This document shows, in pieces, positions 3,501 to 54,045 of a DNA stretch of 64,000 nucleotides. The position numbers and the translations under genes are program-made. The stretch lies in NCBI GenBank assembly GCA_947462335.1, contig OX381716.1, forward strand, positions 8,132,861-8,196,860, written 5' to 3'. Positions within the stretch are counted from its first letter, which is position 1. Every line of letters begins with the position of its first letter. This stretch comes from Harmothoe impar. Taxonomy: Eukaryota; Annelida; Polychaeta; Phyllodocida; Polynoidae. The notes under the pieces were generated by a model, which saw only the letters and a list, made by a program, of their open reading frames with translations, ran no database searches and had not been told where the DNA came from.

Positions 3501-3501
3501 T

Positions 3502-4653: not shown

Positions 4654-4696
<43 letters not shown>

Positions 4697-5629: not shown

Positions 5630-5665
<36 letters not shown>

Positions 5666-6923: not shown

Positions 6924-6991
<68 letters not shown>
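6924..6991. repeat. (CA)n microsatellite
   Basis: An uninterrupted CA dinucleotide run of about 34 units. Confidence 0.97.
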
Positions 6992-6993
<2 letters not shown>

Positions 6994-7576: not shown

Positions 7577-7667
7577 TTTGTCGAACTGACTTCCTAGCCG
7601 CCTGAGAGATGCTGACGTCACACTATTTTCGACGACGCTATGACGCGCACGAGGTAGACAGACGACG

Positions 7668-7690
7668 TCGTTTCACTTCCTTATTTGGAG
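7668..7690 (-). promoter_or_regulatory. Core-promoter-like element of the 117-aa gene
   Basis: On the minus strand CAAATAAGGAAGTGAAACG. It matches the ATAAG-spacer-GTGAAAC pattern before 2625 and 39236. A second TATA-like box (TTATAAAAG, minus strand) lies at about 7751-7760 and could serve instead. Confidence 0.4.
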
Positions 7691-8834: not shown

Positions 8835-8904
8835 TCACATTGGCAGTCGCGGATCCACGAAGAGGCTGAATAAGCCTCGAGCGGACCCGCCACTTGCAAT
8901 GTGA
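8835..8904 (+). other. Two-tier stem-loop, about 70 nt, in E1
   Basis: TCACATTGGCAGTCGCGG pairs imperfectly with the reverse strand of CCGCCACTTGCAATGTGA. Inside lies a perfect GAGGCT/AGCCTC hairpin with a GAATA loop. It could be a structured RNA end or a DNA cruciform. No flanking promoter was identified. Confidence 0.4.
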
Positions 8905-10145
8905 CATAATCTTACCATGCGCTTTGTTTTGTTTTTGTTTCTATTTACAACAGCAAACATTTCAAACAACCTATTGTTTTTTAAAAATGATGAAAAATCA
9001 GCCCCAAAAAAAAGTAAACATTTTAGAGCTAAATTTGTGGAGGATAGCCGGACATGCTGATGTCACTAGACCCCTAAATTCGATATGGTGACATGGGCAT
9101 TTTCTTAAAATTCGATACGACGACACGGGCAAGGACATCTAAGTGACATGGGACATGTGGCATTTCTTGAGTCCCACATGTGCCATGGACCATAGTGACA
9201 TGAGGAAAAAAAAAATGTTCAAAGAGTGCATCAGAAAAGTGCCATTTCAAGCCTAAACATTTCGCCAAATTTTTTTTTTTTTTTCTTGGATGGTACTCGG
9301 CTTTGCAGTGTCTGGGTCCTTAAAAATGTACCAGAATGCTCAAATTCGGGTTCTAAATATTTTCAAAAAACGTTTTCTCCCTTAGTGACGTGTGACATGG
9401 GCATTTCTTAAATTCGACATACGGCTGCATGGGGAGGACCCACCCGTCAAGGGCCCCCATGATGACTCATACCCGCCGCGTTCAAACTAGCGTGGTGGTT
9501 ATAGGTAGACCTTCTTTCAGTATCCACGTGACCAGATCCATCGCCGTCTCTTGAGCAACAGTAACCGAGGTAACTAGGGTTATTGTTATCCGGTCCGTAA
9601 GACGACAGTCTAAGACGGTGTGTAGTCGCGTTTTGCTCTCCCTAATACTCTAATTCAAGTCGAGTTACCGCTAACCCCTACAAAAAGAGGGTCATTTGTG
9701 TAATTCAAAAGGCGTTCCTTTGTTAGCAATGAGGGGGTCGTTCTATTCATTGATTTTTTATTTATTTTTTATTTTTTTTTATTTTTTTTGGTTTACAACA
9801 ACAAGTCAAAGTACAGTCAATCAACCGAGATCCTTTCTACTCCGTGGGGGTGTAGAAGGATCTCCCCCCTGAGGTTACAAAGTCACCTCTTTATTTAAGG
9901 GGCTACGGGCCGCAAAGTCGCTTTCGCTTTCGCTTACAAGTCACAAAGTCGCATGAAATATTCAAGTCAAAAAGTCAAATTCATCAACTATCAGCACAGT
10001 CGTTTGAAAGTCATCAAGTCACCGAAAAACTCCTCTACAGTCACCTCCGACTCGCCTCCTCCCTACCCCCCTAAAGGGGGGTAGAGAGGAAGCGATTCCC
10101 TAGAGATCAGATAATTTTTTTTTTTTTCTCCCGAGCAGACCCCAA
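8905..10145. other. E1 right non-coding region with ACATGTGAC-type repeats and hairpins
   Basis: From about 9050 to 9430 short motifs of the form GTGACATG(G)GCATTTCTTAAA and AATTCGATA recur four or five times. A similar CATGTCA-rich patch occurs in E2 at about 37880-38030. Hairpins lie at 9829-9862 (GATCCTTTCTAC with TGTAGAAGGATC) and 10057-10090 (TACCCCCC/GGGGGGTA with a 4-nt loop). An AAGTCA/AAAGTC direct-repeat patch lies at 9940-10025. No gene is recognised. Confidence 0.45.
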
Positions 10146-10265
10146 AGGCCCCCCCTCCCCCCCAAGTGCCCGCCCACCCCATAAATAGTGCCCCCCTCCC
10201 CCCCCCTCCCCTCCCCATGCATCTTAAAGTGCCCCCCTCCCCCCCCTCCCCTCCCCTCCCCCCTT
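10146..10265 (-). repeat. G-rich tract (minus strand) in E1, G-quadruplex-prone
   Basis: Runs of five to eight C on the plus strand separated by CC(A/T) and ATGCATCTTAAAGTG. The equivalent tract occurs at the same side of E2 (43975-44125) and at the left of E3 (45757-45950). Open frames through it are compositional artefacts. Confidence 0.75.
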
Positions 10266-10419
10266 ATAGAAGCCTCCCATTGGCTAGTCCAAGTCATGTG
10301 ACCAAAAGGGAAGCGTGGTCTGTCCATTGTCTATATTATGCAAATGCGGGAGGGGGTCAGGTCACGTGACCAAGGGGGTGTGGCCTATTTTCCAAATAAA
10401 GAGCGCTTCCGGTCACGTG

Positions 10420-10813
10420 ACCAAGGGGGTGTGGTCCTATTATGCAAATGAGGGGGTCACGTGATCCATTATTATGCAAATGAGGGAGTCACGTGACCAA
10501 ATGGAAGCCTCTGATTGGCTGGTGATCAAAGGGGTGTAGTCTACTATGCAAATGAGGGGGTCACGTGATCAAGGGGGCGTGGCCTATTATGCAGATGAGG
10601 GGGTCACGTGACCAAATGGCGGCCTCTGATTGGCTGGTGATCAAGGGGGCGTGGCCTATTACGTAATTATGCAAATGAGGGGGCGTGGCCTATTACGTAA
10701 TTATGCAAATGAGGGGGTCACGTGACCAAATGGAGGCCTCTGATTGGCTGCAGGTCGATTGAGTAATAAACAGTAGTTAACTATAGTCCCGTTCCGATAC
10801 ATACTATACTACT
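10420..10813 (-). repeat. E1 right terminal inverted repeat
   Basis: Reverse complement of 970-1370, with the same modules in the same order from the end: terminal ~65 bp, CCAAT-type, GTCACGTGAC, octamer, TTACGTAA, GC-box like. Further degenerate modules continue inward to about 10280, including one TTCCGGTCACGTGACC that matches the E2/E3 style. Confidence 0.85.
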
Positions 10814-36114: not shown

Positions 36115-36700
36115 AGTAGTATAGTATGTATCGGAACGGGACTATAGTTAACTACTGTTTATTACTCAATCGACCTGCAGCCAATCAGAAGCCTCCATTT
36201 GACCGGAAGTGACGTCACATGCCCATATAAGGGCATACCGGAAGTGACGTCACGTGACCTTGACCTAGTTAGAGGTCAAGGTCATGACTCAGCCAATCAG
36301 AGGCTTCCATTTGACCGGAAGTGACGTCACACGCCCATATAAGGGCATACCGGAAGTGACGTCATGTGACCTTCACATGTCCATATAAGGGCATACCGGA
36401 AGTGACGTCACGTGACCTTGACTTAGTTAGAGGCTTCTGATTGGCTGGTACACCGGAAGTGACCCATTATGCAAATGAGGGGACTACTTCTGGTCAAATG
36501 GAGACCTCTGATTGGTTGGGTCATGAAGAAATGTGTCTCTTAATTTAATTATTTTAGGAAGTGATCGACTTTAGGATCACGTGACCGGAAGCGACCTGAT
36601 GAGTCACGTGACTAGAAGTGACGACGACACATGCCTTAATTAGGCGATCAGCAGCGACCGGAGGAAGTGTCACTTTAAGAGGACACGCTAGTTAATTGTT
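36115..36700 (+). repeat. E2 left terminal inverted repeat, ETS/CRE-type modules
   Basis: After the shared ~75-bp terminus, the module ACCGGAAGTGACGTCAC recurs several times, joined to GTGACCTTGAC, AGCCAATCAGAGG and CCCATATAAGGGCATA. The inner segment from GGCGATCAGCAGCGACCGG through AATAAAACACAACAAT (about 36637-36755) is nearly identical to E3 46066-46185. Confidence 0.85.
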
Positions 36701-36834
36701 ATAATTTTTTTTTACTTACTAATAAAAGAAAACGTATGAAAATAAAACACAACAATAATTTTATTTATTTTTTTATTTTCTTTTTTTTTCAATTCTAATA
36801 AACACACTATTTTTGAAAAGATGCGCTCAATCAA

Positions 36835-37368
36835 TCAATAACACACTTTTTTTTCATATTTTAAAGGACTCGTTGTCACACCGTTAGAATGCACGCGACG
36901 CTTATAATACAAGTGGCGCACGTCATCTTTCTCTATGGTGTAAGTGTCCATTTTTGGTTCGTACCACTTTGAAATTTCTATTTACCGCAAGGAGAGTTTT
37001 TCGTTTTCGAAAACATCTAAGAAGACGACTGGTTCTTTAGGGTTTTGTTACTTCTGTACACTTTTTGCACGCTATCTTTTTTTTGGGGATTTTCTTTCAC
37101 CGGTGCCGCTGACTCGATCGTAGCAAATGTAAGTCTTAGGGTTGAGACTTAGGATCCCGTCACCTTCTCACGCCGCTTTCATAAGCTCCGAAGTTCTCAG
37201 ATCGTGAAGGTAACGTCTTTCACAACATCCGCCGGGCGGCGGACACCATTTTTGCACTTTTTTTTCCGTTTTTATCTTCACGAAAAGCTCTAAGTGATCG
37301 TCACACACCGATGTCGGAATCCGCTTTCGTTTCTTTCTGAAGTATGTCTCTCTCAGGCGAGGTTTGAC
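36835..37368 (-). pseudogene. polB: C-terminal remnant of protein-primed DNA polymerase B (E2)
   Basis: Minus-strand sequence matches the E3 polymerase from VKPRLRETYF (motif-C-distal region) onward and extends past the point where E3 is cut. It therefore shows the family's natural C-terminus, including the LYYKRRV ... TTSPL block typical of Polinton polymerases, with a stop at 36835. It carries an in-frame TAA near 36992 and frame disruptions, so it is not functional. Upstream it is cut by a MITE inserted at a TA. Confidence 0.85.
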
Positions 37369-37370
37369 TA

Positions 37371-37776
37371 CACAGAGGCAAATATCAGAGGCACCCAATA
37401 GCGCTAATTCTACTCTCAGACAAAGGTCAGGCACTGCTGGACTATAATAGATGGGTCAAGGGCTATTCTAGTGAGGGTCAGGCTACGCCGGACATTCAAT
37501 AACAAGCCGGAGTTTGGCAAACTTGCTTGAAAGTCTGACCATGCGGGATCCTCATGCCATAGTCTGGCAATGCTGAACTCTTGGGAGAGTATGCTGGACT
37601 CTTGCTGGCCAGACTTTCAAGCAAATTTGCCAAAGTCCAGCTTGTTATTGAATGTCCGGCGTAGCCTGACCCTCAGTAGAATAGTCCTTGACCCATCTAT
37701 TATAGTCCAGCAGCGCCTGACCCTTGTATGAGAGTAGTATTGGCGACATTGGTTGACTCTGATATTTACCCGTGTG
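37371..37776. mobile_element. Tc1/mariner-type MITE (406 bp foldback) in E2
   Basis: Long imperfect inverted arms (about 37371-37540 and 37605-37776) begin CACAGAGGCAAATATCAGAG and end with the complement of CACACGGGTAAATATCAGAG. TA flanks both ends (37369-37370, 37777-37778), the target of Tc1/mariner transposases. No coding capacity. It abuts the polymerase remnant, but polymerase sequence does not resume on the far side, so a deletion accompanied or preceded it. Confidence 0.75.
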
Positions 37777-37778
37777 TA

Positions 37779-38039
37779 CGGTGGGAGGAGGGGGTTCACA
37801 GCCACAGCTTGCGCTTATAGAGCGCTACTAGCGGAGGTCTGGATGAGGAGACTACGGCGTTTGTCTTAAAAAAAAATAGCCATGGCACATGTCGATGTCG
37901 CTTAATTATGCTCATATCTCATGGTGATTTTAAGAATTGCTCATGTCACCTGTCACTATGTTTTTCAAGCTTCATGTCAAATGTCACTAGGTCTCATGTC
38001 GAATGTCGATGCTAAGAAACAGACATGACGTCATCTCGA
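37779..38039. other. E2 spacer with CATGTCA-type repeats
   Basis: ATGTCG, CATGTCA and GTCACTA motifs recur about every 15-25 bp between 37895 and 38030, resembling E1 9050-9430. No gene. Confidence 0.4.
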
Positions 38040-38345
38040 ATTTAGCGGTCTACACTACCGCTGCTGCTGCTGCTGCTGCTTGTGCAGCTCGTGCAGCTGT
38101 TGCAGCTGCTGACAGCTGCAGCTGTTGTAGTTGCTGACGCTGTCACGGATGCTGTTGACAGATGCTACTGCTTGGGCTGCTTGCGCTGCTCGTGCAGCTG
38201 CTGCAGCTGCTGACGATGTCACGGATACTGTTGACAGATGTGGCTGCTTGTGCTGCTTGTGCAGCTGCTGCTGCTGCTGACGATGTCACGGATGCTGCTG
38301 ACAGATGCTGCTGCTTGTGCTGCACGAGACTGAGTAGCCGCTATT
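38040..38345 (+). repeat. CTG/GCA-rich tandem repeat, decayed Ala-coding sequence
   Basis: A unit of about 60-75 bp built of GCTGCTGACGATGTCACGGAT and ACTGTTGACAGATG repeats about three times within CTG runs. Short frames on each strand give poly-Ala, poly-Cys or poly-Leu. Plus-strand pieces read AADDVTDAADR, reminiscent of the Ala/Asp repeats in the E1 gene, but the frame shifts between units. I treat it as a relic of an Ala-rich cargo gene. Confidence 0.45.
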
Positions 38346-38384
38346 ACTAATGCTACTAATACTAGTATGAGAAAATACATTTAG

Positions 38385-39236
38385 TCAGTTGATTAAATCA
38401 AGGAGGTTTTCTGACTCCAGTGGATCGTTTAGCCATCGGCCACGGGCAAAACTTGAAACCATTTTATACATGGGACAATTGGCAGAGTCGAAACGTGTTG
38501 GTACGATGGGGTCGATCATGTTCATCATCAGTTCAGGCAAAGGAAGTGTGTCGACAGCACGCGAAAACTTCATGTCTGAATGTTTCAACACAAGACTTTT
38601 TATCACACTCACACAGCTGCTTTGAAGAGTGAATCCTTGACCAAACTTGTGCTTTTCCAACACAGCTTTGGCCTCTTTCTGTGCAGTAAGGGATCTCTCT
38701 TTCGGGTTCATCTCAGTGCTGTCTAGCATGTCCTCGAAGTCTTTAACATAATGTTCCAACGGGCTACAAATGATGGACTCCAGATCATCGTCCGCATATG
38801 TCGTCTCCTCGCACCATATTGTGTCTTCGCCTGTTTCGAATTCCGTCATTTTCTTGACAATCTCCTCCTGAGTGCCTTGCATATATCGAAGCTCCTTCAA
38901 GGAGTTGATAACTTGTATGGCGAAGACTGACAAACTTGAAGGAATTTCACCACAGTTAGGCCAAGTATACGGAGCTAAGAAAAATAGCTCTAACAAAATC
39001 TTCTCCCTCTGTCCAAATGAAACTACTGTTCCGATGAAGTTGAAGCATGCTTCTATCCATTGCTCCTTGGTGACGTCCTTCCAATGTTTCTTTACCTCAC
39101 ATGCATCATAGGGCACTGTTTCTCTTCTTGCTTCAAGTGGGAGTTGCTTTTTCTTTCTTGGACTCATTTCGAGAGGGTTTCGATGCTCTGTAGCGTCAAC
39201 ACTTTCATAAATAAAGAAAATAGCAGAACTAATCAT
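38385..39236 (-). CDS. Unrecognised 283-aa cargo protein of E2
   Basis: An intact frame sits between the two halves of the broken polymerase and reads the same way. The first ATG below a promoter-like GTACATAAGGAGTGAAAC (39319-39337) is 39236. A second possible start (MSPRKKKQL) is 23 residues in and begins with a basic patch. The protein looks globular and mainly helical, with Trp/Phe-rich segments (KHWKDVTKEQWIEACFNF, LELFFLAPYTW), an acidic middle (YADDDLESI) and a C-terminal RGRWLNDPLESENLL. No signal peptide or membrane span. I do not recognise a domain; a small adaptor or apoptosis-type helical fold is possible but unsupported. An intact frame in an otherwise decayed element suggests recent acquisition or selection. 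Confidence 0.65.
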   Translation of the reverse strand: MISSAIFFIYESVDATEHRNPLEMSPRKKKQLPLEARRETVPYDACEVKKHWKDVTKEQWIEACFNFIGTVVSFGQREKILLELFFLAPYTWPNCGEIPSSLSVFAIQVINSLKELRYMQGTQEEIVKKMTEFETGEDTIWCEETTYADDDLESIICSPLEHYVKDFEDMLDSTEMNPKERSLTAQKEAKAVLEKHKFGQGFTLQSSCVSVIKSLVLKHSDMKFSRAVDTLPLPELMMNMIDPIVPTRFDSANCPMYKMVSSFARGRWLNDPLESENLLDLIN

Positions 39237-39318
39237 CGTAACGTGCTGAGCGAGCGTAGAGTGGACGATGCTACGAAGATGAAGGGCGGGTGGAGAAAGT
39301 GTGACTGGTGAGAGCGGC

Positions 39319-39337
39319 GTTTCACTCCTTATGTACC
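39319..39337 (-). promoter_or_regulatory. Core-promoter-like element of the 283-aa gene
   Basis: Minus strand GGTACATAAGGAGTGAAAC, ~85-90 bp above the ATG at 39236; same pattern as before the two E1 genes. Confidence 0.5.
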
Positions 39338-39519
39338 CTGTCCTAGATAAGCCTCTTAAACGGCTGAAAAGACTCTCTCAGTACAGAGCTTCTACTGCAG
39401 GTGGGTTTAGACTTAAGCAGCTTAGTTCACACACGTGTCTGTTAGAAAAAGCTACTTGCACACCTGCCTTCCCTTTTCACTAGTATTCACCCTCTGCCGA
39501 CTTATAAGACACCTATACA
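39338..39519. other. E2 upstream region of the 283-aa gene
   Basis: Non-coding segment between the promoter-like element and the polymerase remnant. CTTAAACGGCTGAAAAGACTCTC and CCTGTCCTAGATAAGCCTCTTAA resemble E1 2688-2730, so this upstream region is shared between unrelated cargo genes. Confidence 0.45.
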
Positions 39520-41022
39520 CTCCTTCTCGTGAAATCTATGGAAGATGATGGAAGGACCACTGACTAGATTTTCTTTGATCAGAGCGTGGAGGACGGCGTC
39601 GAACGGAGGGAACGTTGTGAACACAGCTCATAGGTTTTTGGAAGAGGACCTGTAAAGTCAAACTGGCGAGAGAGATCTCGTCTTTCAACATGACAATGCT
39701 GCTATCTTGGAAAAAATTAGCGTGATTTTTTCAAAAGCTTCTATGAAAGGTTTGACGTCTTCGTTGTTGTAGTGGATCAAGTAATCTCTCATAGTTTGCT
39801 TCTTCTTGTCATACTTGAAGCCGCTTCTTCAGTTGAACTAACGGTTGTCTGGTGTGAGCTGCAGCGAAGCCGCCTGGAGAAGGGGTGAATGTCGCTTCCT
39901 CTAGCAGGAGAGCTTCACCTATCGCCACATGTAACTTCGCTAACGTTGGTCGGTAAACTTCTAGCACAGCTTTCTCGATGACTTTGGCGTTCTCGTTTAT
40001 GTGATTTTAAACTCGGTCTAACAAGGGGTTGGAATCTGCGTCGGATTCTCTGACGTACACTGCCCCTCCTACCCCGGAAAGTCGTATGCGACGCTAGCCG
40101 ACAAAGGGACGTGATCCCACAGCAGGGACACGTGTTCGGTCGACGGTCATCTGCACGGTCTGAAGAAAGCCTCGAAATTGAAGGTAATGTTGTAAGGGTA
40201 GATTCTGGAATGTCCGTCGGGAGGAAAAGTTTCACGTGTGGCAGCGGGACAGAACTGACGTAACAAATTTGAAGCGCGCTTGCTGGTGTTGTATAAGTGA
40301 AAGGAAATGTGGCGGAAGACGCAGAGGTTGTCCTTGTTGGGAAAATCTAACACACGGCTTCTCTTTCCAACTCGACCGTCCTGACTGTTCCTACCGCCTA
40401 TGGGAAAACCCCCCGGTCCCATGTAAACGCAAATGTTCAAAATTAGTAGGAAAAAGAGCGCACCGCTTGGTGTCAGCGTCGCAAAGTTTCCGTACTTCCT
40501 CGCAAGCGACGGTGTTTTCCATGTTTGAGAGGAGCTCTTCTAAAGTTTCTGAATTAGTTATAGTAGGGAGCGGTTGTAATGAGAGTTGCGTTGTTCTGGG
40601 AGACGTGGAAGTAGCGCAGTATGCTCTTGTCTTCTCTGTGTTGTAAGAGTAAGCCTACCGAGAAACCCACTTTTATCATTGTGTGAAGCAGATTGCGACG
40701 CATAGTATCTACAGCGTCACTCAACTCGCCGGTTGGTAGTTTGACGTTTGTTACACTCACGCGAGTCCCGTGCATCCTGACACTCGTTCGTATTGCAGGC
40801 CAATTCGCCGTGAACGTTTCCTCACCGTTCGGTACAGCGCATGTACGTAGAGGGATAGTCACCTCGTCCAGAGATTCGCGTCGACAGGTGATCTTTTCAG
40901 CAATCGACATCGCCGCATAGAGGGCAAAACTTAGGTATTGTTCTTCATTTTTCTACGGGTCACTCGTGATTGTACGGTCTTTTAAAAATTTTGAAACACT
41001 TTTCGCAAACGTCCTGCGTCAT
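39520..41022 (-). pseudogene. polB: N-terminal remnant of protein-primed DNA polymerase B (E2)
   Basis: Minus-strand DNA matches E3 49724 to about 52015 at the nucleotide level. It has an ATG at 41022, several single-base frameshifts and stops, and one ~410-bp internal deletion (the counterpart of roughly 51310-51720) that removes the second exonuclease motif. It keeps an arginine codon (CGA) where E3 has TGA, showing that the E3 stop is a mutation. Sequence ends at GAGAAGG (about 39520) where cargo-gene upstream DNA begins, so polymerase motifs A, B and C are absent. Confidence 0.9.
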
Positions 41023-41190
41023 GTTTTTCTTTTTTTTTGTTTTTTCACTTATTTACCAATTATTAAAAAAAATAAACGTTATTTATCACTTTGAATACTA
41101 GACGCCTCTTACCACACGATACTATTAGCATAGTGAAAGGCGACTGTAGTCTAGGATCGAATTCAACAGATGTCCATCTTACTGCAGGGA

Positions 41191-41937
41191 TCAGACGAGA
41201 GTGGTCAACACTGGAGTGTCACAGCTCACTTTTATGTCTTTGGGTACAGCTGCATACAACCCTTGAACATACATTGCGACGTCGCTGTGACCCATGTCGT
41301 CTTGCAACACTTTCATCAGAGCCATAGGCTCAGACGTCTCGTTGTACTTCCAAGCTCTCAGCACTTCATAGACAGGGTTCTTCACAGTCCTGTCAGAAGG
41401 CACAGGTTGAGAGATGAAAGCTACTTCATGAGAAGTCAACCATAAGTAGATCCCTATGGTCTTCCAGTCTCTAGGGCAGAGCTCAGCTAAAAGAGAGAAA
41501 TATTTCTGCACTTTCCACTCCATGTCTCCACTCTCTAAGCCATCCCACATGTCATGCTTGTCCATGTACTCACGTGAGAATTTGATGAGGTCCATACGGT
41601 AAGATTCTTCCAAGGCGGCGGCTAGGTCCTTCCACCTAGTAGTACAACTTTTCTGGTACCAAGTAGTGAACATTTCTCTAGCTTGAGTTATGACACTTGT
41701 CTCACAACTGAGATATCCCATATCCTTCAAGTTCACTTCAAGGTATGAACCTAACCGTATGTAATCTGATGTCGGCAACTTACTACTTATTTTCAGTAGC
41801 ATAGCGTCTGACAAGTATCCTAACGGCTCTGCTTTGAAGTATGATGATACAGGTACTACTGCAGCAGAACCAATAACAGGAGCAGCGTCTGCGCTGGTAT
41901 CAGACGACTCGTTGTCGGAACAGGGCAACCACACGAC
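41191..41937 (-). CDS. Tandem death-domain region (247 aa), reading on from the Ala-rich leader after a TAG
   Basis: Continuous frame in register with the upstream Ala-rich ORF, separated from it only by a TAG at 41941-41943. The first ~25 residues (WLPCSDNESSDTSADAA) match the leader protein of E3. Two death-domain-like helical bundles follow: about residues 36-115 (RLGSYLEVNL, MFTTWYQKSCTTRWKDLAAAL) and 130-225 (DWKTIGIYL, VYEVLRAWKYNE, MALMKVLQDDMGHSDVA). The spaced Trp/Leu pattern and the LRVL-DMG-type last helix parallel the E3 protein 46185-46925, though overall identity looks low. Death domains normally mediate homotypic assembly in apoptosis and innate signalling; interference with host signalling is an inference. 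No ATG lies at its start, so expression needs readthrough, suppression or an internal start. Confidence 0.65.
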   Translation of the reverse strand, partial: VVWLPCSDNESSDTSADAAPVIGSAAVVPVSSYFKAEPLGYLSDAMLLKISSKLPTSDYIRLGSYLEVNLKDMGYLSCETSVITQAREMFTTWYQKSCTTRWKDLAAALEESYRMDLIKFSREYMDKHDMWDGLESGDMEWKVQKYFSLLAELCPRDWKTIGIYLWLTSHEVAFISQPVPSDRTVKNPVYEVLRAWKYNETSEPMALMKVLQDDMGHSDVAMYVQGLYAAVPKDIKVSCDTPVLTTLV

Positions 41938-41940
41938 TTC

Positions 41941-42246
41941 CTAAGGTGGTGGTGAGGGCAGTCGCCACGGACCGGACGCGCTACCAGTGGAAATGAGGTC
42001 GAAAAACGGACTGTGCGCCAGTAACCCTTCGGGTTCCTCGTACGCCTCGTCGTCAGCGTCGTTCTCTGTCTCACCCTGTTGCTTTAGGGCATGTATGTCT
42101 ACTACGCGCTGCTGGGGCTGAGTGTCCGAATAGCTGTAAGTCTCAGCGCGAGCGGCGTTGATGGCGTCGGTTGATGTAGCGGTGGAGAGGTTCTGTGCAA
42201 CGTGCTGCGTGTCAGTACTAGTAGCGGCAGTCGCAGCAAGAGGTGT

Positions 42247-42278
<32 letters not shown>

Positions 42279-42388
42279 GCGCAGCGCTAGCAGGTGCAGC
42301 AGTAGCAGGCGCAGCAGTAGCAGGCACAGCAGCAGCAGGCGCAGCAGCCTCAGCAGGCGCAGCAGTAACAGGCGCAGCAGTAGCAGGC

Positions 42389-42419
<31 letters not shown>

Positions 42420-42729
42420 CAGCAGCACTAGCAGCACGAGGATCACCAGCAGCCGCAGCAGGCGCAGCAGTAGCAGCAGCAGCGTGCTTAGCAGCAACAA
42501 CCGTCGCGAGTGTAACAACGTCGCTACCACGACGACTACTACTACCACTACTACTGCTGCGTGCGCTCGCTACAGCGGGAGGGTGATAAGACCAAGCGGT
42601 TGCGGCGGTAGTCTCAATTTCAGTAGCAAGAGGAGACGCTGACGGTAAACGATCACCGTTCTGCGTACTCTTCTTGTTCTTGAACTCGATTAGATCCTTG
42701 GACGACACTAGTTGTTGTGTTTTGCTCAT
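41941..42729 (-). CDS. Ala/Ser-rich leader protein of E2 (262 aa, ends at TAG)
   Basis: ATG at 42729 in strong context (CCACCATGAGC) lies ~60 bp below TATATAAGG. Residues 1-55 and the segment around YHPPAVASAR match the E3 protein at 47976. A Ser patch and ~100 residues of Ala/Pro repeats follow, then a Gln/Asp/Glu-rich acidic stretch (ENDADDEAYEEPEG) and GPWRLPSPPP. In E3 the frame runs on from this point; here it meets TAG and then continues in the same frame into the death-domain region. Either the TAG is a decay mutation or there is programmed readthrough. Without it the product would be ~510 residues. Confidence 0.7.
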
Positions 42730-42785
42730 GGTGGTGACTGTAGAGAGCAGCAAAAGACTGAGTGAGTGAATGGGTGTTTCCAGCC

Positions 42786-42797
42786 CCCTTATATACT
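42786..42797 (-). promoter_or_regulatory. TATA box of the E2 Ala-rich gene
   Basis: Minus strand TATATAAGGGGGCTGGAAAC, ~60 bp above the ATG; near-identical to E3 47910-47928 (TATATAAGGGGTCTGGAAAC). Confidence 0.7.
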
Positions 42798-42799
42798 CC

Positions 42800-43540
42800 T
42801 TCTCGCTTCTAGAGCTAAGCTACTTACGGCTCTGTTCAGCTGCCGCCGGCTGACCGGCGGCCATTCACAAAGAGAAACAAAAAGACATAAGGCATGACGT
42901 TTTCAGCTGGAGCCCTTTCCCCCTCCCCTTTGAGAGATCGACTGACATGAGCTAAGCTACTTACTGCCTTGTTCAGCAATTCAACGTGCGTTAGCTGTAT
43001 AAAGGATTAAGCAGTTGCTGCCGCCGGCTGACCGGCGGACATTCACAAAGAGAAACAAAAGACATAAGTCATGACGTTTTCAGCTGCATCTCTTTCCCCC
43101 TTTTTTTGAGAGATCGACTGCCATGAGCGGGCGGTGTACCGACTGTGCTAATTCAACGCGCATTAGCTGTATAAAGGATTAAGCAGTCATGAGCTTAGAG
43201 TGTGTATACAAAAAACTACAGGAGGCGTGTAGTGTGAAGCAGGACCCCCTAAGACGGGTGTGTCTGTCTGTGAGTAGAGTCGTGTGCATGTGGTGAGCGA
43301 CTTAAGTGTAAAACAAAAAAAAATCACCGCCTCCTGCCGTGGTGAGTAGACCGGCCGGCGGCGGCCGGCTAGTTCAATAGGGGTGACAGCTGACTAAGGC
43401 TGTGCATGAAAATCCGATTTTCACCTGACCTCTGACGTTTGTTACAATGAATGCCAAAGGGGGAGAGAGTCGTCCTCAGGTAGGGGGTAGGAGGTAAGGC
43501 TAATGGATAAGGAAAAAACACCATTTTCAGCTGGCCACCA
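42800..43540. other. E2 upstream region with duplicated regulatory blocks
   Basis: Two copies (about 42820-42960 and 43010-43140) of a block with CCGCCGGCTGACCGGCGG, ATTCACAAAGAGAAACAAAA and CATGACGTTTTCAGCTG. The inverted GTATACAAAAAACTACAGGAGG block lies near 43207. It is homologous to E3 47400-47890. Confidence 0.6.
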
Positions 43541-43775
43541 CAGATGGCGATGACATACCCCTCGTCATCTAAGCTCTTAAGAAGCTCTTACGGAGCAGAG
43601 GGGCTGCTGGACAGCTGGGGTGCTGTTGGAAATAGGATTAAACTCCCTCTGTATAAAAGCTCTGATTTCTGTTGGAAAAAAACCATATCACCTCTGACCA
43701 CAGTAACGTCTACTACCACTACCACCAGCACCACCGCCGCCGCTACCGCCGCCGCCGCCAGTCACAGCTGATCGC
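43541..43775 (+). promoter_or_regulatory. Orphan promoter and 5' UTR of a death-domain gene in E2
   Basis: Plus-strand sequence with CTCTGTATAAAAGCTCTGATTTC, CCACAGTAACGTCTACTACC and (CCG)n closely matches the upstream region of the E3 death-domain gene (reverse of 46930-47160). In E3 the ATG follows; here the sequence runs straight into terminal-repeat DNA. The reading frame through it is UTR-derived, so the gene body has been deleted. Confidence 0.75.
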
Positions 43776-44792
43776 CTCATTAAAGCATGTGACGTCGTCA
43801 CTTCTAGTCACATGCTTCATCAAGTCGCTTCCAGTCACGTGATCCTAAAGACCCTCACTTCCTAAACAAAAAAAATGAAGAGACACGCTTCTTCCTCTCG
43901 AGAGGAAGAAGCGTGTCTCTCGATTGAAATCTTTTTCTTTTCTTTTTTTCTTAAAAGAGACAAACGCCCCTTAGAGTGCCCCCCCACCCCCCTAGAGTGC
44001 CCCCCTCCCCCCTCCCCCCCTCCCCCCCACCCGCCCCATGCATCCTAAAAGCGCCCCCCTCCCCATGCATCTTAAAGGGGCCCCCCTCCCCTTCCCTCCC
44101 CTCCCCTCCCCTCCCCCCCCCCTTATACACTCTAAAGAACGCTTCTACCTAGTTCAATAAGTCACTTCCAGTCGCTCGTAAAACAATAAAAAATGAAAAA
44201 AAAATAAAACTTATATCGTAGTGTTTTTTATTAGTTTACCGAAAAAAATAAGAGACTCGCCTCCTCCTCCTCTCCTTCTCCTCCTCCTCCTCCTCCTCCT
44301 CCTCCTCCAAAAAAAAAGATATCACATTTTAAAGCGCGTGACCCCTTAAAGAAGCTCATCTCTTCATTAAGTCGCGTGACGTCACTTCTTCTTCCGGTCA
44401 CGTGATCAATCAGGTCACTTCTGGTCACGTGATCCTCAATGAGGTCACTCACTTCCGGTTGGCCATTAGGTCATGTGACGTCACTTCCGGTCACGTGACT
44501 CATCAGGTCACTTCCGGTCCTAAATTAGGTCATATGACGTCACTTCCGGTCCCCTAAGTAGGTCATATGACGTCACTTCCGGTCCATAAGTAGGTCATAT
44601 GACGTCACTTCCGGTCACGTGACCAAATGGCGGCCTCTGATTGGCTAACTAGGTCACGTGACGTCACCACTAATCCCCTAAGTAGGTCACTTCCGGTCAC
44701 ATGACCAAATGGAGGCCTCTGATTGGCTGCATGTCGATTGAGTAATAAACAGTACTTAACTATAGTCCCGTTCCGATACATACAATACTACT
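43776..44792 (-). repeat. E2 right terminal repeat region
   Basis: Reverse complement of most of 45066-46060. It contains the 42-bp palindrome (43879-43920), C-rich tract (43975-44125), (CCT)n run (about 44264-44308) and the TTCCGGT-CACGTGA / TGACGTCA modules out to the terminus. One end of E2 therefore has the long, structured repeat and the other a shorter one. Confidence 0.85.
43879..43920. repeat. Perfect 42-bp palindrome in E2 terminal repeat
   Basis: Two 21-nt arms without spacer, centred on CTCTCGAGAG; identical to 45994-46035 in E3. It can extrude as a cruciform or form a long hairpin in single strands. Confidence 0.95.
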
Positions 44793-45065: not shown

Positions 45066-45756
45066 AGTAGTATTGTATGTATCGGAACGGGACTATAGTT
45101 AAGTACTGTTTATTACTCAATCGACCTGCAGCCAATCAGAGGCCTCCATTTGGTCACGTGACCGGAAGTGACCTACTTAGGGGATTAGTGGTGAGGTCAC
45201 GTGACCTAGTTAGCCAATCAGAGGCCGCCATTTGGTCACGTGACCGGAAGTGAGGTCATATGACCTACTTATGGACCGGAAGTGACGTCATATGACCTAC
45301 TTAGGGGACCGGAAGTGACGTCATATGACCTAATTTAGGATCACGTGACCGGAAGTGACCTGATGAGTCACGTGACCGGAAGTGACGTCACATGACCTAA
45401 TGGCCAACCGGAAGTGAGTGACTTGATTGAGGATCACGTGACCGGAAGTGACCTGATTGATCACGTGACCGGAAGAAGAAGAAGAAGAAGAAGAAGTGAT
45501 GTCACGCGACTTAATGAAGAGATGAGCGTCTTTAAGGGGTCACGCGCTTTAAAATGTGATATCTTTTTTTTTGGAGGAGGAGGAGGAGGAGGAGGAGGAG
45601 GAGGAGGAGGAGGAGAAGGAGGCGAGTCTCTTATTTTTTTCGGTAAACTAATAAAAAACACTACGATATAAGTTTGTTTTTTTTTTTCATTTTTTATTGT
45701 TTTACGAGCGACTGGAAGTGACTTATTGAACTAGGTAGAAGCGTTCTTTAGAGTGT

Positions 45757-45950
45757 ATAAGGGGGGGGAGGGAAGGGGAAGGGAGGGGAGGGGAGGGAAG
45801 GGGAGGGGGGCCCTTTTAAGATGCATGGGGAGGGGGGCGCTTTTAGGATGCATGGGGCGAGTGGTGGGGGGGGGGGGAGGGGGGGAGGGGGGAGGGGGGG
45901 AGGGGGGAGGGGGGCACTCTAGGGGGGTGGGGGGGCACTCTAAGGGGCGT
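45757..45950 (+). repeat. G-rich tract, G-quadruplex-prone
   Basis: G runs of 4-12 separated by single A or T; counterparts on the opposite strand at 43975-44125 (E2) and 10146-10265 (E1). Frames through it are Gly/Pro artefacts. Confidence 0.8.
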
Positions 45951-45993
45951 TTGTCTCTTTTAAGAAAAAAAGAAAAGAAAAAGATTTCAATCG

Positions 45994-46035
45994 AGAGACA
46001 CGCTTCTTCCTCTCGAGAGGAAGAAGCGTGTCTCT
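45994..46035. repeat. Perfect 42-bp palindrome in E3 terminal repeat
   Basis: Identical to 43879-43920. Lies between the G-rich tract and the 3' end of the death-domain gene. Confidence 0.95.
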
Positions 46036-46184
46036 TCGTTTTTTTTTTGTTTATCACGTGCTTCGATGAGGCGATCAGCTGCGACTGGAGGAAGTGACAC
46101 TTTAAGAGGGCGCGCGTCTTAATTGTTATGATATTTTTTTTTACTTACTAATAAAGAAGACGTATGAAAATAAAACACAACAAT

Positions 46185-46925
46185 TCACCTGTCCGTCGTT
46201 CTCGTTGTTTCTTGCTTGATAAAGTCAAGTAATATCGCGATGCCGAGGTCAAACTTTCCCATGTCCTCAGTCAACACTCGAAGGAGTTCAAAAGGTGTAC
46301 CGCCAGCACCGTCAGCTTCATCTTGCCACATTTTCAACACTCGGAAGGCCCACTCAGCGGGACTTCCTCCGTATTCGCATTCTTCAGCGATCTTATCTAA
46401 CCTCTCAGGCGACAATTTTAAATGGTCCCCCACCTCTTTCCACCTGCTACCTAGACGTCTGCCGAGGGTGCCCAAGTGCTTATGCATCGCGCGCGAGTCG
46501 GGGTTTTCGAAATCCAACCCCTGTCTGTGGAGAAGGGACATCCACTGAGCCAACAGTTCCACGCGTCTAATGCGGGTGAAGACGCGACCGAGCTCTCCCC
46601 ATCTATGACGATGCGGGGTTTCACCCCACCAGACTCGGAACATCGCCGTACACAGCTCCTCCGGTGTCTTGACACTGCGCTCTACTAGAGCATCCATACG
46701 GGCGGCGGTAACTTTTAAGCTACTGCCCAACTCTCTCCAACAGCCGCTCAACTCTTTACCTAGTTGACGAAGCAAGGCGTCGCTATAGGCTAACCGCCGC
46801 TGTCCTACCTCTCTGTTCTCCCCATCGGTCTGCCTCGCGCGTCTCACGTCGTCAAGCCGCATTAACTTTTTTTCAGGTGGACAAGGCGGTGAAGGCGAGC
46901 TTGAAAGTGGAATAGCTTGAGCCAT
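46185..46925 (-). CDS. Tandem death-domain protein (246 aa)
   Basis: Intact frame, ATG at 46925, preceded by a (GCC)n-rich leader and a TATA box ~110 bp upstream. Residues 1-44 are Pro/Ser then basic. Death domain 1 spans about residues 48-128 (LGKELSGCWRELGSSL, TAARMDALVER, AMFRVWW). Death domain 2 spans about 147-235 (LGRRLGSRWKEVGDHLKLS, ERLDKIAEEC, WAFRVLKMWQDE, PFELLRVLTEDMGKFDLG). The W-x-x-LG-x-x-L first helix, the x-x-ML-x-x-W block and the L-x-x-VL-x-x-MG last helix follow the death-domain pattern well. In animals such domains nucleate apoptosis and innate-immune complexes. A protein with two death domains and no effector could act as a decoy or scaffold; that is inference. No transmembrane or signal sequence. 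Confidence 0.82.
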   Translation of the reverse strand: MAQAIPLSSSPSPPCPPEKKLMRLDDVRRARQTDGENREVGQRRLAYSDALLRQLGKELSGCWRELGSSLKVTAARMDALVERSVKTPEELCTAMFRVWWGETPHRHRWGELGRVFTRIRRVELLAQWMSLLHRQGLDFENPDSRAMHKHLGTLGRRLGSRWKEVGDHLKLSPERLDKIAEECEYGGSPAEWAFRVLKMWQDEADGAGGTPFELLRVLTEDMGKFDLGIAILLDFIKQETTRTTDR

Positions 46926-47975: not shown

Positions 47976-48377
47976 ATGAGCAAAAGACAACACCTAGCGC
48001 CGTCCAAGAACAAGAAGACTACGCGGAACAGCGCTCGTTTAGCGTCAGTGCCTCCTCTTGTTACTGAAAATGAGACTACCGCCGCAGCCGCTTGGTCTTA
48101 TCACCCTCCCGCTGTAGCGAGCGCTCGCGGCAGTAGTAGTAGTAGTAGCAGTAGTAGTAGCAGTAGTAGTACTAGTAGTAGTAGTAGTAGTAGTAGTAGT
48201 ACTACTGGTAGTAGTCGTCGTGCTAGCGACGTTGTTACACTCGCGACGGTACACTTTGCTGCTAAGCGCGCTGCCGCTGCTACTGCCGCCCCGCCTGCTG
48301 CGGCTGCTGCTGCTGCTGCTACCGCTGCGCCTGCTACTGCTGCGCCTGCTGAGGCTGCTGCGCCTGCTACTGTTGCG

Positions 48378-48417
<40 letters not shown>

Positions 48418-49532
48418 CTGCTGCACCTGCTGCTACCGCTACTACTACTGACGACAACGCTCCTGGCACACCGGGTTTTTACCTCCCCACTACTGTTGAT
48501 GACTTTGATGACCTGCCGCACGTTGCACAGCCCCTCTCCTCCACCACTACATCGACCGACGCCCTCGACGCCGCTCGCGCTGAGAGTGACAGCTATTCGG
48601 ACACTCAGCCCCTAAACCGAGAAGAAGAGGAGGAGGAGCAACAGGGTGAGACAGAGAACGACGCTGACGACGAGGCGTACGAACAACCCGAAGGGAAAGG
48701 GGTGGGCGGTACGTTTTTCGGCTTCCCTCTTCGACCTTTCGACCTCACTTCCTCCACTAGTAGCGTCCCGTCCGGTCCGTGGCGACTGCCCTCACCGCCA
48801 CCTTACGAGGGCGGCGGCGCTTCATCTTCTACCGCTACACTCAGCACCGACGGCGTGTGGCTGCGCTGTTCCAACAACGAGGCCTCGGATACCACCAGCG
48901 CTGACGCTGCTCCTGCTATCTGTTCTGCTGCTGATTCAGCTCACGCTGATGGTGTTACTCATCCTGCGGGTGTGAAACGTTCTAAGGTGAGTTCCAGAAC
49001 AACAAGGCCTAGTAAGAAGAGAAAAATACAAGAAAAAGAACGAGATGGACGAGAAGAAGCAGAGAAAACCTTCTCCCGTCTTCTCGGGTTAGAGTTCTGC
49101 TTAGACGGAGCTTTGACGCTGGAGATCTGGGAGGACGTGGCTAGACTGTCTAGGAGGCCGCGCTACACAAAAGACGGCCAGGTGAAAGAGGCGTCTCTGA
49201 CCAGAAGCAAGCGAGTGCACTTCACGGCCGACGCGCTGCGCGAGCTAATAGCACGCATCGCCGATATCCGCGCAGTGGTGCGCATACGCGACACAGCGGC
49301 CGCGCAAGGAAAACCTAATCACACCCCCTGGTTCGCAGTGCTGGATGAGGAGGGCGAAGTGTACGCAGCTGTGAGCTACTACAGCGGTAAGAACCTCGTC
49401 CACGTGCGCAAGTACGAAGGTCCTGACAAAAAACCCACACAGCAGGGAGTGACGCTGTCCGCCAGAGCGCTCAAAGAGTTGGATGACAAAACAGAGATCA
49501 TTCTGAAATATCTCGGCATAGATTCGGAATGA
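47976..49532 (+). CDS. Ala/Ser-rich protein with C-terminal PC4-like ssDNA-binding domain (518 aa)
   Basis: ATG at 47976 has a strong context (ACCACCATGAGC); upstream in-frame codons belong to the leader. Order: a short basic N-terminus; a poly-Ser block (about residues 49-80) encoded by AGT repeats; Ala/Pro repeats (about 95-165); Ser/Thr/Asp and an acidic stretch ENDADDEAYEQPEG (about 227-240); GPWRLPSPPP (about 270-279); a basic nuclear-signal-like KKRKIQEKE (about 346); then a folded C-terminus. Its last part, VSYYSGKNLVHVRKYEG ... GVTLSARAL (about 463-500), matches the PC4 (p15 coactivator) single-strand-binding fold. A related half-repeat (SLTRSKRVHFTADALREL) lies near 405-425. Likely role: binding single-stranded DNA in replication or transcription next to its polymerase. 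The function is inferred from the domain. Confidence 0.75.
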
Positions 49533-49723: not shown

Positions 49724-52700
49724 ATGACACAGTACGTATGCGAAAAGTGTTTCAAAATGTTTAAAAGACCGTACAACCACGAGAGACACGTAGAAAATTG
49801 TAGAGTAGTACCTAAGTTTTGCCCTCTATGCGGCGAAGGCGATTGCCGAAAGATCGCCTGTTGACGTGAATCTCTGGACGGGGTGACCGTCCCTCCGCGC
49901 ATATGTGCTGTACCGAACGGGGAGGAAACGTTCACGGCGAATTGGCCTGCGATACAAACGGGCGTCAGGATGCACGGGACTCGCGTGAGTGTAACAAACT
50001 TCAGGCTACCAACCGGCGAGTTGAGTGACGCTGTAGATACTATGCGTCGCATTCACTTGACACAAAGATTCAGATACAAAGTGGGTTTCTCGGTAGGCTT
50101 ACTCTTACAACACAGAGAAGACAAGAGCAAACTGCGCTACTTTCACGCCTCCCAGAACAACGCAACTCTCATACAACCGCTCCCTACTATAACTAATTCA
50201 GAAACTTTGGAAGAGCTCCTCTCAAAGATGGAAAACACCGTCGCTTGCGAGGAAGTACGGAAACTTTGCGACGCTGACACCAAGTGGCACGTTCTTTTTC
50301 CTACCAATTTGAACATTTGCGTTTACATGGGACCGGGGGAATTCCCCATAGGCGGTAGGATCACTCAGGCCGGTCGAGTTGGAAAGAGAAGCGGCGTGTT
50401 AGATTTTCCCAACAAGGACAACCTCTGCATCTTCCGCTGCATTTCCTTTCACTTATACAACACCAGCAAGCGCGCTTCAGATTTGTTACGTCAGTTCTGT
50501 CCCGCTGCCACACCTGAATCCTTTCCGGGTCTGAACATCCGCGACTTACCCGCGTTAGAGAACTTGTTTGACGTACAGATAGCGGTTTACACCGCGTCGC
50601 GTCAAGTGCCGGGGCGGAAGTTGAGAAGACGCGTTACTCTGATCAGACCGCCTTCCAGAACTCTGGCCGCCCGAGGTAAAGTCAACCTACACCTGACGGC
50701 GAAAGGCGGTTTGCACGTCTCTCTCGTCACGGACTTCAACGCGTACGCGGGCATATACGAATGTTGCAAGTGTAAGGCGGCGTTCACCACCGAGTTCTTG
50801 CTGAAGAGACACAGGAACCAGCTTTCCTCTTGCCGACAAGTCAAGTTGCGCTACGTAGGTGGCATCTACCAAAATTCGAGAACGATTTTCGAAGCGCTAG
50901 CAGACTTCTCCATTTTTCCCCCCGAAGGACATTCCGGAATCTACCCTTACAAGATCGCCTTCGATTTCGAGGCTTTCTTCAGACCGTGCAAAGAACCGTC
51001 GACGGAACACGTGTCCCTGCTGTGGGATCACGTCCCTTTGTCGGCTAGCGTCGCATCCGACTTTCCGGGGTGGGAGGGGCCCGTCTGCTTCGTCAGAGAA
51101 TCCGACGCAGATTCCGACCCCTTGTTGGACCGAGTTTTAAATCACATAAACGAGAACGCCAAAGTCATCGGGGAAGCTGTGCTAGAACTTTACCGACCGA
51201 CCTTAGCGAAGTTAGATGCGGCGATAGGTGAAGCTCTCCTGCTGGAGGAGGCGACGTTCACCCCTTCTCCAGGCGGCTTCGCTGCGGCTCAGACCAGACA
51301 CCCGTTAGTTCAACTGAAGAAGCGTCTTCTGAGATACATCCGGCAAGCTCCAGTCGTGGGCTTCAACTCGGGGCGTTACGACTTGAACCTGATCAAAATA
51401 CGCCTTCACTCGTTCTTCGCCTCCGGAGACCGAAGAAACCAAGAATTCAGCGTCATAAAGAGAAGCAATCAATACTTGGCGGTTTACACACAGCACACGG
51501 TTTTCTTGGACGTAGTCAACTATTTGGCACCCGGTTACAACTACGCGACCTATTTGCGAGCTTTCACCAGGAACGAAGAGAAAGGTCACTTTCCTTACGA
51601 ATGGATGACGTCTACCAGGAAACTGGCAAACAGAATGCTGCCACCGAGATCGGCTTTCGACAGCGAGCTGACGGGCGTCAAAATGTCCGAATCCGACTAC
51701 GCCGCATGTCAGAAAGTTTGGTCCGACGAGAAGATGCAAACTATGGAAGACTACTTGATCCACTACAACAACAAAGACGTCAAACCTTTCATAGAAGCTC
51801 TGAAAAATCACGCTAAATTTTTCCAAGATCGCGGCATTGACATGTTGAAAGACGGAGTTTCTCTCGCCGGTTTGACTTTACGGTTCCTCTTCCAAAACCT
51901 AGAAGACGCGTTCACAACGTTCCCCCAGTTCGACGCCGTCCTCCACGCTCTGATCAAAGAAAATCTAGTCGGCGGTCCTTCCATCATCTTCCATAGATTT
52001 CACGAGAAGGGCACCACGCGGATAAGGGAGCACAAGTACGGCGAAGAAGCGAGACCGTGCCAACACATCCTAGGACTAGACGCTAACTCTCTGTACTTGC
52101 GCTGCATGAGCGAAGCGCACTGCACGGGCTATTACGCGGTGAGACGGCCCGAGACCGAGTTCAAGCCTGAAATTAGGCAAAGAAACTCTCACAGCGCTTT
52201 GGTGTGGTTACGCTTCGTAGAGCACGACCGCGACGTGAAACTGCGCCACGCTTTGAACGGCGGCGAGATGGTTGTAGGCTGTCGGAGAATTCGAGTGGAC
52301 GGGTTTCACGCGGCCTCTAATACGGTTTTCCAGTTTCACGGGTGTTGGTTCCACGCTCACGAGTGCATACCGTCGCACCTATATCAGTGCGCTTCACTGA
52401 GAGAGGAGAGACGCGACAGAACGACCAGAGTAAGCGCTTACTTGAAAGCGCTAGGTCACAAGCTGGTCGTCGTGTGGGAGTGCGAATGGCGAGAGATGAA
52501 GCGTCGAGATGAGCGGGTCAAGGCCTCCCAACAACGCTGGAAGGTTGACGCTTTGAAAGTGTCTCGAAACGCGATGAGCGAGAGCGACATCCTTTCCGCT
52601 GTGAAAGAGGAGAAAATGTTTGGTTTAGTTCAAGTAGACATCACTACGCCGCCTCACCTACGAGACTATTTCGAAGAAATGACCCCCGTTTTCAAGAACG

Positions 52701-53695
52701 CGACCGTTTCAAAATCGGACATAGGACCTCACATGTCAGACTTTGCGCAGGAAGAAAAGCTGTTGAACACGCCTCAGAGATGTCTGATAGGGAGTTACCA
52801 CGGAAAAAATATTCTCTTGGGAACGCCGCTTCTCAAGTGGTATTTAGAGCACGGTTTGATAGTCACCAAAGTGCAGCTGGTGGTAGAATACCTACCTAAA
52901 CGCTCCTTTGCCGGTTTCGCGGACGAAGTAACGGCGGCGCGAAGACGTGGCGACGTGAACGAGAACGAGAAAATTCTGTCAGACTGTTACAAGTTAATGG
53001 GAAACGCTACGTACGGTAAAACAATCTGCAACAAAGAAAAACACACGGCGGTGAGATACACTGACAGTCGGAAGTTCGAACTATTGGCCAATTCGTGGCG
53101 CTTCAAAAAGGCGTCCGAGTTGAGTTCCGATCTGTTTGAAGTCGAACTACAACCGAAAACAGTCAACAACAACCTCCCTATTCAAATAGGGTTCATGGTA
53201 TACCAGTACGCGAAGTTGAAAATGTTAGAGTTCACATACGACTTCTTGGATAGATTCGTCGATCGGCGCGATTATGCCCTTTGTCAAATGGACACCGACA
53301 GTCTTTACATGGCTCTCAGCGGTGACACGTTGGATGACCTAGTCAAACCTCGCCTGAGAGAGACGTACTTCAGAGAGAAACGAAAGTGGCTTCCGACAGC
53401 GGTGTGCGACGATCACTTAGAGCTTTTCGTGAAGACAAAAACGGAAAGAGTGCGAGAATGGTGTCCGCCGCCCGGCGGATGTTGTGAGAGACGGTACCTT
53501 CACGATCTGAGAACTTCGGGGCTTATGAAAGCGGAGTGGGAAGGTGACGGGATCCTAAGTCTCAACCCTAAGACTTACATTTGCTACGATCGAGTCAGCG
53601 ACACCGGTGAAAGAAAATCCAAAAAATGGAGTGCAAAAGTGTGGGGAGCAGCTCAGTGTGGGGAGCAGCTCAGTGTGGGGAGCAGCTCAGTGTGA
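49724..53695 (+). pseudogene. polB: Protein-primed type B DNA polymerase of Polinton type (nonsense codon, C-terminus lost)
   Basis: The natural start is probably 49724. Its first 46 codons encode a C2H2-type finger (CEKCFKMFKRPYNHERH), then TGA at 49862-49864, where E2 has CGA. The same frame then stays open from 49865 to 53695; from the next ATG (49883) it is 1270 codons. Numbering from 49883: CIFRCISFHL (about 174) is a conserved Polinton N-terminal block, and CCKCKAAFTTEF ... KRH (about 293) is a second finger. Exonuclease I is FDFE (about 360), II is NSGRYD (about 494) and III is YNNKD (about 628). Polymerase motif A is DANSLYL (about 733), B is KLMGNATYGK (about 1037) and C is QMDTDSLY (about 1136). 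All catalytic residues are present. After codon ~1251 the frame enters a host minisatellite, losing ~90 terminal residues seen in E2. It would replicate linear DNA by protein priming. Confidence 0.9.
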
Positions 53696-54045
53696 GGAGC
53701 AGCTCAGTGTGAGGAGCAGCTCAGTGTGAGGAACAGCTCAGTGTGAGGAGCAGCTCAGTGTGAGGAACAGCTCATGGTGTGGAACTAAGTGTGAGTGGAA
53801 TAGCTCAGGGTAAGGGGAGCAGATTAATGTGAGGAAGCAGCTTAGTATGAGAACAGCTAAGTGTTGGGAGCAGCTCATGCTGTGTAAGGAGAATAGCTAG
53901 TTGTAGAGAGCACTTCAATGTGAGGATCAGGTTAGTATGGAGGGCAGTTCAGTTTGAGGAGATATGTTCTGTGTTAAGGGAGCAGCTCAGTCTGAGGGAG
54001 CAGCTAAGTGTGAGGAGCAGCTCAGTGTGTGATGAGCCTAATATG
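53639..54045 (+). repeat. 17-bp minisatellite (GTGTGGGGAGCAGCTCA) at the E3 truncation point
   Basis: About eight near-perfect then many degenerate units. Related but fewer units occur in the LINE tail at 13115-13180 and inverted at 25330-25430. The last residues of the polymerase frame (GEQLSVGSSSV) are translated repeat, not polymerase. Confidence 0.85.

Follow-up and report, generated by a model that had tools for sequence, protein, structure and literature searches.

Death domains act by homotypic assembly, and in host proteins such as FADD, RIPK1 and the ankyrins they are coupled to a death effector domain (DED), a kinase or a membrane-skeleton part. Death-fold decoys occur in herpesviruses, and K13 is one of the viral FLIP proteins (vFLIPs). 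Decoys of this kind are also known in poxviruses (PMC4558505) and iridoviruses (PMC4457926). In the passages cited here, MC159 is recruited to the death-receptor complex, binds FADD and inhibits apoptosis (PMC4558505), and a ranavirus CARD-only protein reduces caspase activity in HeLa cells (PMC4457926). Here, we describe DD1, a gene for a tandem death-domain protein carried by a Polinton-derived element copy, E3, in the annelid Harmothoe impar. The stretch analysed (64,000 nucleotides of contig OX381716.1, positions 8,132,861 to 8,196,860; hereafter the window) also contains two related elements, E1 and E2. A paralogue, DD2, which an earlier note on this DNA did not mention, lies in a larger Polinton of the same genome and, as a fragment, in E2.

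The earlier note had described DD1 as an intact gene of 246 residues with its own TATA box, next to a terminal repeat of E3. All of this holds: the open reading frame (ORF) is uninterrupted, a TATAAA precedes its start (Table 1), and its stop codon abuts the terminal and subterminal repeat region of E3, whose segment 46055-46184 recurs at the other end of E2 (36628-36756). By eye, E2 retains the same TATA stretch despite the absence of DD1. The frame is free of stops over 266 codons; the longest frame in 300 order-1 simulations of the region 45066-49970 had a median of 140, a 95th percentile of 185 and a maximum of 284. The length is thus unusual yet not decisive alone; homology is decisive. 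A chance ORF is ruled out by the homologues, the profile scores and the 150 scored copies described below.

The whole DD1 protein matches the Pfam Death profile (PF00531) in two stretches, with 31.1 bits (E = 2.6e-7; cut-off 22.6). Taken singly, its halves reach 18.0 bits (copy A, 46515-46808) and 18.6 bits (copy B), both under this cut-off, which DD1 passes only with both halves together. Profile comparison with the Death, CARD, DED and PYD families had been proposed as a check: Death matched, and neither DD1 nor its family gave a Pfam match to the other three, whose identities were dropped. The claim that DD1 has no effector domain also stands, nothing besides Death reaching the Pfam cut-off. 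All 11 members of the first family alignment match the Death profile at E <= 1 (best 2.5e-15). The single DD1 protein finds RIPK1 only at E = 0.012 among PDB sequences; a profile built from 15 DD2-family proteins alone retrieves DD1 with 58.5 bits (E = 4.9e-17), and the highest score that it gives to any of 1000 shuffled versions of the DD1 protein is 5.5 bits. The family profile resembles the death domains of FADD, RIPK1 and ankyrins in sequence, and the fold is similar too.

Structure prediction gave a six-helix death fold for copy B modelled singly, and this prediction is strong. For copy A, six helices (residues 49-134) were seen only within the poor two-domain model (pTM, the predicted template modelling score, 0.47), in which the match to ankyrin G covers residues 48..238, so that the packing is mixed. 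Of the two death-domain bundles first proposed, the joint profile match of both halves and the fold of copy B are therefore upheld, and copy A is seen in that model alone. The tail ahead of the two domains is modelled with low confidence and is probably disordered. Two outcomes had been named beforehand as contrary to the proposal, namely folds other than six-helix bundles and homologues found solely as host genes. Neither occurred, copy B modelling as a death fold and the homologues not being solely host genes.

Protein searches yielded three relatives for DD1 and six for DD2, and the alignment of all of them brought the total to 20, 11 of them new. No relative came from the scans of viral contigs (polB, A2, A3, A6) or of genome contigs (A6). 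DD1 and the E2 copy of DD2 are 24% identical over 190 columns, and the tandem layout persists across the family down to about 20% identity. In a tree of the halves of 19 proteins, the A halves are split from the B halves by a branch of 97/100 (bootstrap not settled); three fragments (P0013, P0019 and P0020) were excluded from this tree and from the count of C termini below. Since the A and B halves separate, the tandem predates the split between DD1 and DD2, with one tandem ancestor. In all four DD1-family members, a basic half A precedes an acidic half B. S/T-x-V, presumably a class I PDZ-ligand pattern, forms the C terminus of 11 of the 15 complete DD2-family proteins and of none of the 4 DD1-family proteins; among 3914 background triplets, 23 fit it. 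These ends are best read as conservation among 15 related proteins, not as 11 independent events. The residues ahead of this PDZ-ligand-like tail vary.

A first look at the genome assembly (1.51 Gb) gave 3959 candidates for DD1, and our figures come from the best 150 by protein match. All 150 encode DD1 with no stop and with 100% identity over residues 1-245 or 1-246. At 20 of 20 DD1 loci the gene is accompanied by the element DNA upstream of it, by the beginning of the Ala-rich gene and by sequence of the terminal repeat. The element end was reached at 18 of them, beyond the stop by 670 bp at one locus and by 1066-1189 bp at 17, and these ends border 18 different 6-bp flanks. DD1 is therefore not a host gene lying beside an element. 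The search for homologues beside element termini, also suggested earlier, gave the same picture, as every homologue with visible surroundings lies in element context (20 DD1 loci, ten longer stretches and 12 DD2 loci).

Ten stretches of 10 kb, chosen via DD1, were examined for element structure. Seven have both ends and a perfect 6-bp target site duplication (TSD), different in each, with lengths of 7879, 9083, 9391, 9421, 9468, 9578 and 9587 bp. Two of the others are interrupted by ORFs resembling those of long interspersed nuclear elements (by eye), and in one no right end was seen. Among eight copies with a readable polB, this gene is uninterrupted from end to end in two (stretches L025 and L026; 1374 and 1373 aa, with an Ala-rich/PC4 protein of 537 and 522 aa) and broken in six. 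In L025 and L026, which have both ends, we found no further ORF of at least 120 aa, save one overlapping DD1 in L025, and no integrase, packaging ATPase, protease or capsid gene. Because their open frames encode nothing beyond DD1, the Ala-rich/PC4 protein and polB, the DD1 element is a Polinton-derived element of three genes and not a full Polinton. The Polinton traits of the carrier, as proposed, are supported by its ends, 6-bp TSDs and family B polymerase, with putative protein priming; the idea of a standard Polinton, with DD1 as one gene of the ordinary full set, is rejected, the open-frame copies having neither integrase nor capsid. Compact Polinton-derived elements of 7.9-9.6 kb (L021, L025-L030) are numerous in the genome.

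Variants of DD1 in the 20 loci comprise 11 silent changes and 1 replacement. For DD1 as for DD2, identity, intactness and such counts come from similarity-selected lists and are not evidence of selection. Variants of polB were counted in the copy from the window together with 9 of the 10 stretches chosen via DD1, a sample not selected on polB; 39 are silent, 40 are replacements and 2 are stops. As a random silent share would be about 0.22 (computed for DD1), the proportion of silent variants suggests recent constraint on polB. In another view, DD1 is a functionless passenger that derives from a host death-domain gene, picked up by accident and multiplied along with the element. Many copies are indeed decaying, as the broken polB genes and the loss of DD1 from E2 illustrate. 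However, the tandem layout has been retained across the divergence of the family, and DD1 is open in all 150 scored copies and DD2 free of stops in 148 of 150, though in selected lists. We regard a passenger as very improbable.

DD2 gave 3696 first-look candidates, and among the best 150 its identity is 98-100%. In 12 DD2 loci we counted 7 silent variants and no replacement, and in all 12 the DD2 stop lies 13 nt ahead of the ATG of a P-loop gene. At L031 the frame of this gene hits a stop soon past the P-loop. In L044 its Pfam matches (AAA, Adeno_IVa2 and Pox_A32) are all under cut-off and give it a weak resemblance to packaging ATPases. The larger element was followed at one locus, on C5 (stretches L043, L045 and L046; the locus of L031). 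There, polB lies on the opposite strand and is 44% identical to the window polB, and an integrase stands downstream of DD2 (rve 41.5 bits, cut-off 32.6; Chromo 36.1 bits, cut-off 25.1), so that polB and integrase occur together. The protein past the integrase looks like a Polinton minor capsid protein; considered as an adintovirus-type capsid, this candidate has neither a Pfam nor a PDB match. The motif AGTAGTAT, with which E1, E2 and E3 start, is present at L046:1991, and a matching right end was not found. From these features, DD2 is assigned to a larger, integrase-bearing Polinton. Two further observations concern this locus: a DUF5662 protein (77.4 bits) is encoded about 300 bp upstream of DD2 (L043:6430-7080), and the integrase (L045:188-1267) has its chromodomain at the C terminus.

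The neighbours of DD2 invite two other explanations. In the first, the domains would have no signalling role and would instead self-assemble into a structural or replication scaffold for element DNA, for packaging or for a replication compartment. DD2 adjoins the ATPase-like gene and, at one locus, lies upstream of the integrase and the presumed capsid gene; the S/T-x-V ends of the DD2 family suggest tethering, and death domains can form filaments, as PDB titles among the structural matches indicate (RIPK1, TNFR1 and TRADD). Against such a scaffold, the DD1 family lacks these ends, and the closest PDB sequence matches of the family profile are signalling proteins. We judge it distinctly unlikely. 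In the second explanation, DD1 would target the DD2 of the larger Polinton, a viral rather than a host partner, and so capture its integration or packaging machinery. As the open frames of L025 and L026 cover only three genes, an integrase and a capsid have to be supplied in trans; moreover, DD1 and DD2 share a tandem ancestor, DD2 stands beside the ATPase-like gene with an integrase at the locus followed, and E2 recombines the two families naturally. However, the two polBs are no closer than stated above, and the DD1-element terminal repeat has only short matches (<50 bp) in the DD2-element stretches searched, so the DD2 Polinton need not be the helper, and nothing points to a pairing of DD1 with DD2 specifically. 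A hook of this kind seems improbable to us. It would also be one form of a broader scheme, which we consider quite doubtful, in which a satellite and a larger Polinton in the same genome, each with a tandem death-domain protein from one ancestor, use death-fold signalling internal to the elements. As the satellite has kept only polB, a PC4-like protein and DD1, the last would be its sole means of acting on host or helper, whether as a switch of host death or as a hook onto the DD2 and packaging machinery of the helper.

Established at this point are the predicted fold of copy B, the tandem layout, the location in an element, the many copies and the DD2 paralogue in a larger Polinton; whatever goes past fold and genome context is what we infer. 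We interpret DD1 as a virus-type accessory gene of the Polinton-derived element, and its position beside the terminal repeat is where accessory genes are expected. Its most likely role, which we hold with evenly divided confidence, would be that of a decoy that blunts or miswires host death or immune signalling. DD1 would be expressed while the element replicates or reactivates, and would enter host assemblies built on death domains of the FADD, RIPK1, TNFR or ankyrin type, using two unlike surfaces, the basic one of copy A and the acidic one of copy B. With no enzyme or receptor part, it would recruit neither caspase nor kinase, and we propose that it caps or miswires these assemblies for that reason. 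Cell death or immune signalling would then be delayed while polB copies the element. The logic would be like that of vFLIPs, with death domains in place of DEDs, and two unlike death domains alone can suffice to cap, bridge or nucleate assemblies.

The same bivalence would also allow DD1 to activate host signalling, e.g. pro-survival NF-kB, by joining two different host death-domain proteins rather than blocking them. Some vFLIPs activate NF-kB. The unlike domains of DD1 and their opposite charges (Table 1) fit such bridging. FADD is an interaction partner of MC159, a viral protein with tandem death folds, but the passages cited for vFLIPs concern inhibition (PMC4558505). We hold activation to be unlikely, and favour the decoy. 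Several results weigh against a decoy as well. The opposite charges of the halves are not kept through the DD2 family. The two-domain model is poor (best Foldseek E 0.91), and neither it nor the copy B model has a Foldseek match reaching E = 0.001; for this poor model, the probability is at most 0.10 among the 50 PDB matches listed, and the BFVD search gave no match at E <= 0.001. Structural matches include ankyrins and THOC1, and death domains have other roles too. Finally, the 100% identity of DD1 and its 11:1 ratio of silent to replacement variants are selected results (best 150 of 3959).

Table 1. Features of the elements E1, E2 and E3 in the window (strand "." where none applies)
Feature	Position	Strand	Remarks
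DD1, tandem death-domain gene	46185..46925	-	246 aa, intact; no other Pfam domain above cut-off
TATAAA	47036..47041	-	116 bp upstream of DD1 ATG
DD1 copy A, residues 46-137	46515..46790	-	six helices predicted; net charge about +4.8 (basic)
DD1 copy B, residues 138-246	46188..46514	-	death fold in model; net charge about -5.2 (acidic)
E3 terminal and subterminal repeat region	45066..46184	.	starts AGTAGTAT; inner edge meets DD1 stop
E3 left host flank	45060-45065		GTCTAT
Ala/Ser-rich protein, PC4-like C terminus	47976..49532	+	E3; 518 aa
Family B DNA polymerase (polB)	49970..53632	+	E3; Exo and Pol motifs; C terminus lost
17-bp tandem repeats	53638..53790	.	truncate E3 inside polB
E2, degraded relative, inverted orientation	36115..44792	-	both ends, 8678 bp; without DD1
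E2 TSD	36109-36114 and 44793-44798		TGCCTA
DD2 fragment in E2	41191..41862	-	original start lost; frame runs upstream into Ala-rich remnant
E1, third element	970..10813	.	ends as E2 and E3; 9844 bp; TSD AATGCC

The first stretch of the terminal repeats is common to the three elements of the window (Table 1), and E1 and E2 have terminal inverted repeats with an AGT-AGT start. E3 itself is incomplete: the gene DD1 is intact, as first claimed, but polB breaks off at about 53632, and no end motif was found rightward within the window. Its polB matches PF03175 with 30.0 bits (cut-off 25.8) and was read with what we take to be the usual Exo and Pol motif patterns. The polBs of both element families (window; L043, L046) contain a C2H2-like zinc finger and a weak Vsr-like endonuclease segment (residues 783-859 in the window copy), under the Pfam and NCBIfam cut-offs in both. 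The PC4 profile gives 22.1 bits for the whole Ala/Ser-rich protein (cut-off 25.0) and 25.5 bits for its C-terminal piece; this PC4-like domain (49140-49529, forward strand) is perhaps the single-strand DNA-binding protein of the element.

In E2, DD1 has been lost (E2 43863/43753 against E3 46053/46939 in the alignment), and the DD2 fragment matches Pfam Death with 43.4 bits. The segment 41076-41860 is 93-94% identical to DD2 and the start of the ATPase-like gene in the 12 larger-Polinton loci, and E2 is therefore a natural recombinant of the two element families. A backbone from the three-gene family has received DD2 and the ATPase-like start, set behind the Ala-rich remnant. Within its polB region, an intact ORF of 283 aa (38385-39236, reverse strand) has no match in Pfam (E <= 10), PHROG (E <= 0.1) or PDB (E <= 1). 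In E1, neither a polB nor a death-domain gene was found, and the longest ORF encodes an Ala-rich repeat protein; E1 may be a further non-autonomous derivative.

If the proposed role is true, Polinton-type elements, which are ancient and integrated in many genomes, also have an interface with cell death, which fits a virus-like life over quiet transposition. With at least 150 copies identical over residues 1-245 in the genome, domestication of DD1 by the host is also possible. The three-gene layout raises the questions of how such an element is mobilised with no integrase or capsid, and why DD1 is retained besides polB and a PC4-like protein.

No paper on Polintons or adintoviruses in which death domains are mentioned came up in our literature search, most subscription papers being outside this search; in one paper "Maverick" and "death domain" co-occurred as unrelated terms, and "death" has no occurrence in the main text of the vertebrate Maverick/Polinton paper. 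In contrast to the vertebrate Maverick/Polinton, open-frame copies of the DD1 element have no integrase, ATPase, protease or capsid genes. The DD1/DD2 family shares fold and profile similarity with host FADD, RIPK1 and ankyrin death domains, but unlike these proteins DD1 and DD2 consist of death domains only. Viral proteins made only of death folds are known already; what is new, as far as this search reaches, is one composed of death domains and carried by a Polinton-type element. As far as the cited passages go, GIV-CARD is, like DD1, a small protein with nothing but a death fold, encoded by a DNA virus and proposed as an apoptosis decoy, but it has a single CARD in 91 aa where DD1 has two death domains (PMC4457926). 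On the same partial basis, the vFLIPs MC159 and K13 share with DD1 a pair of adjacent death-fold domains, the lack of an effector domain and a carrier that is a DNA virus or virus-like. They differ in that vFLIPs are tandem DED proteins, whereas the DD1 domains match Death with no match to the DED profile, and DD1, known from its sequence, places the Death subfamily in a Polinton-type element.
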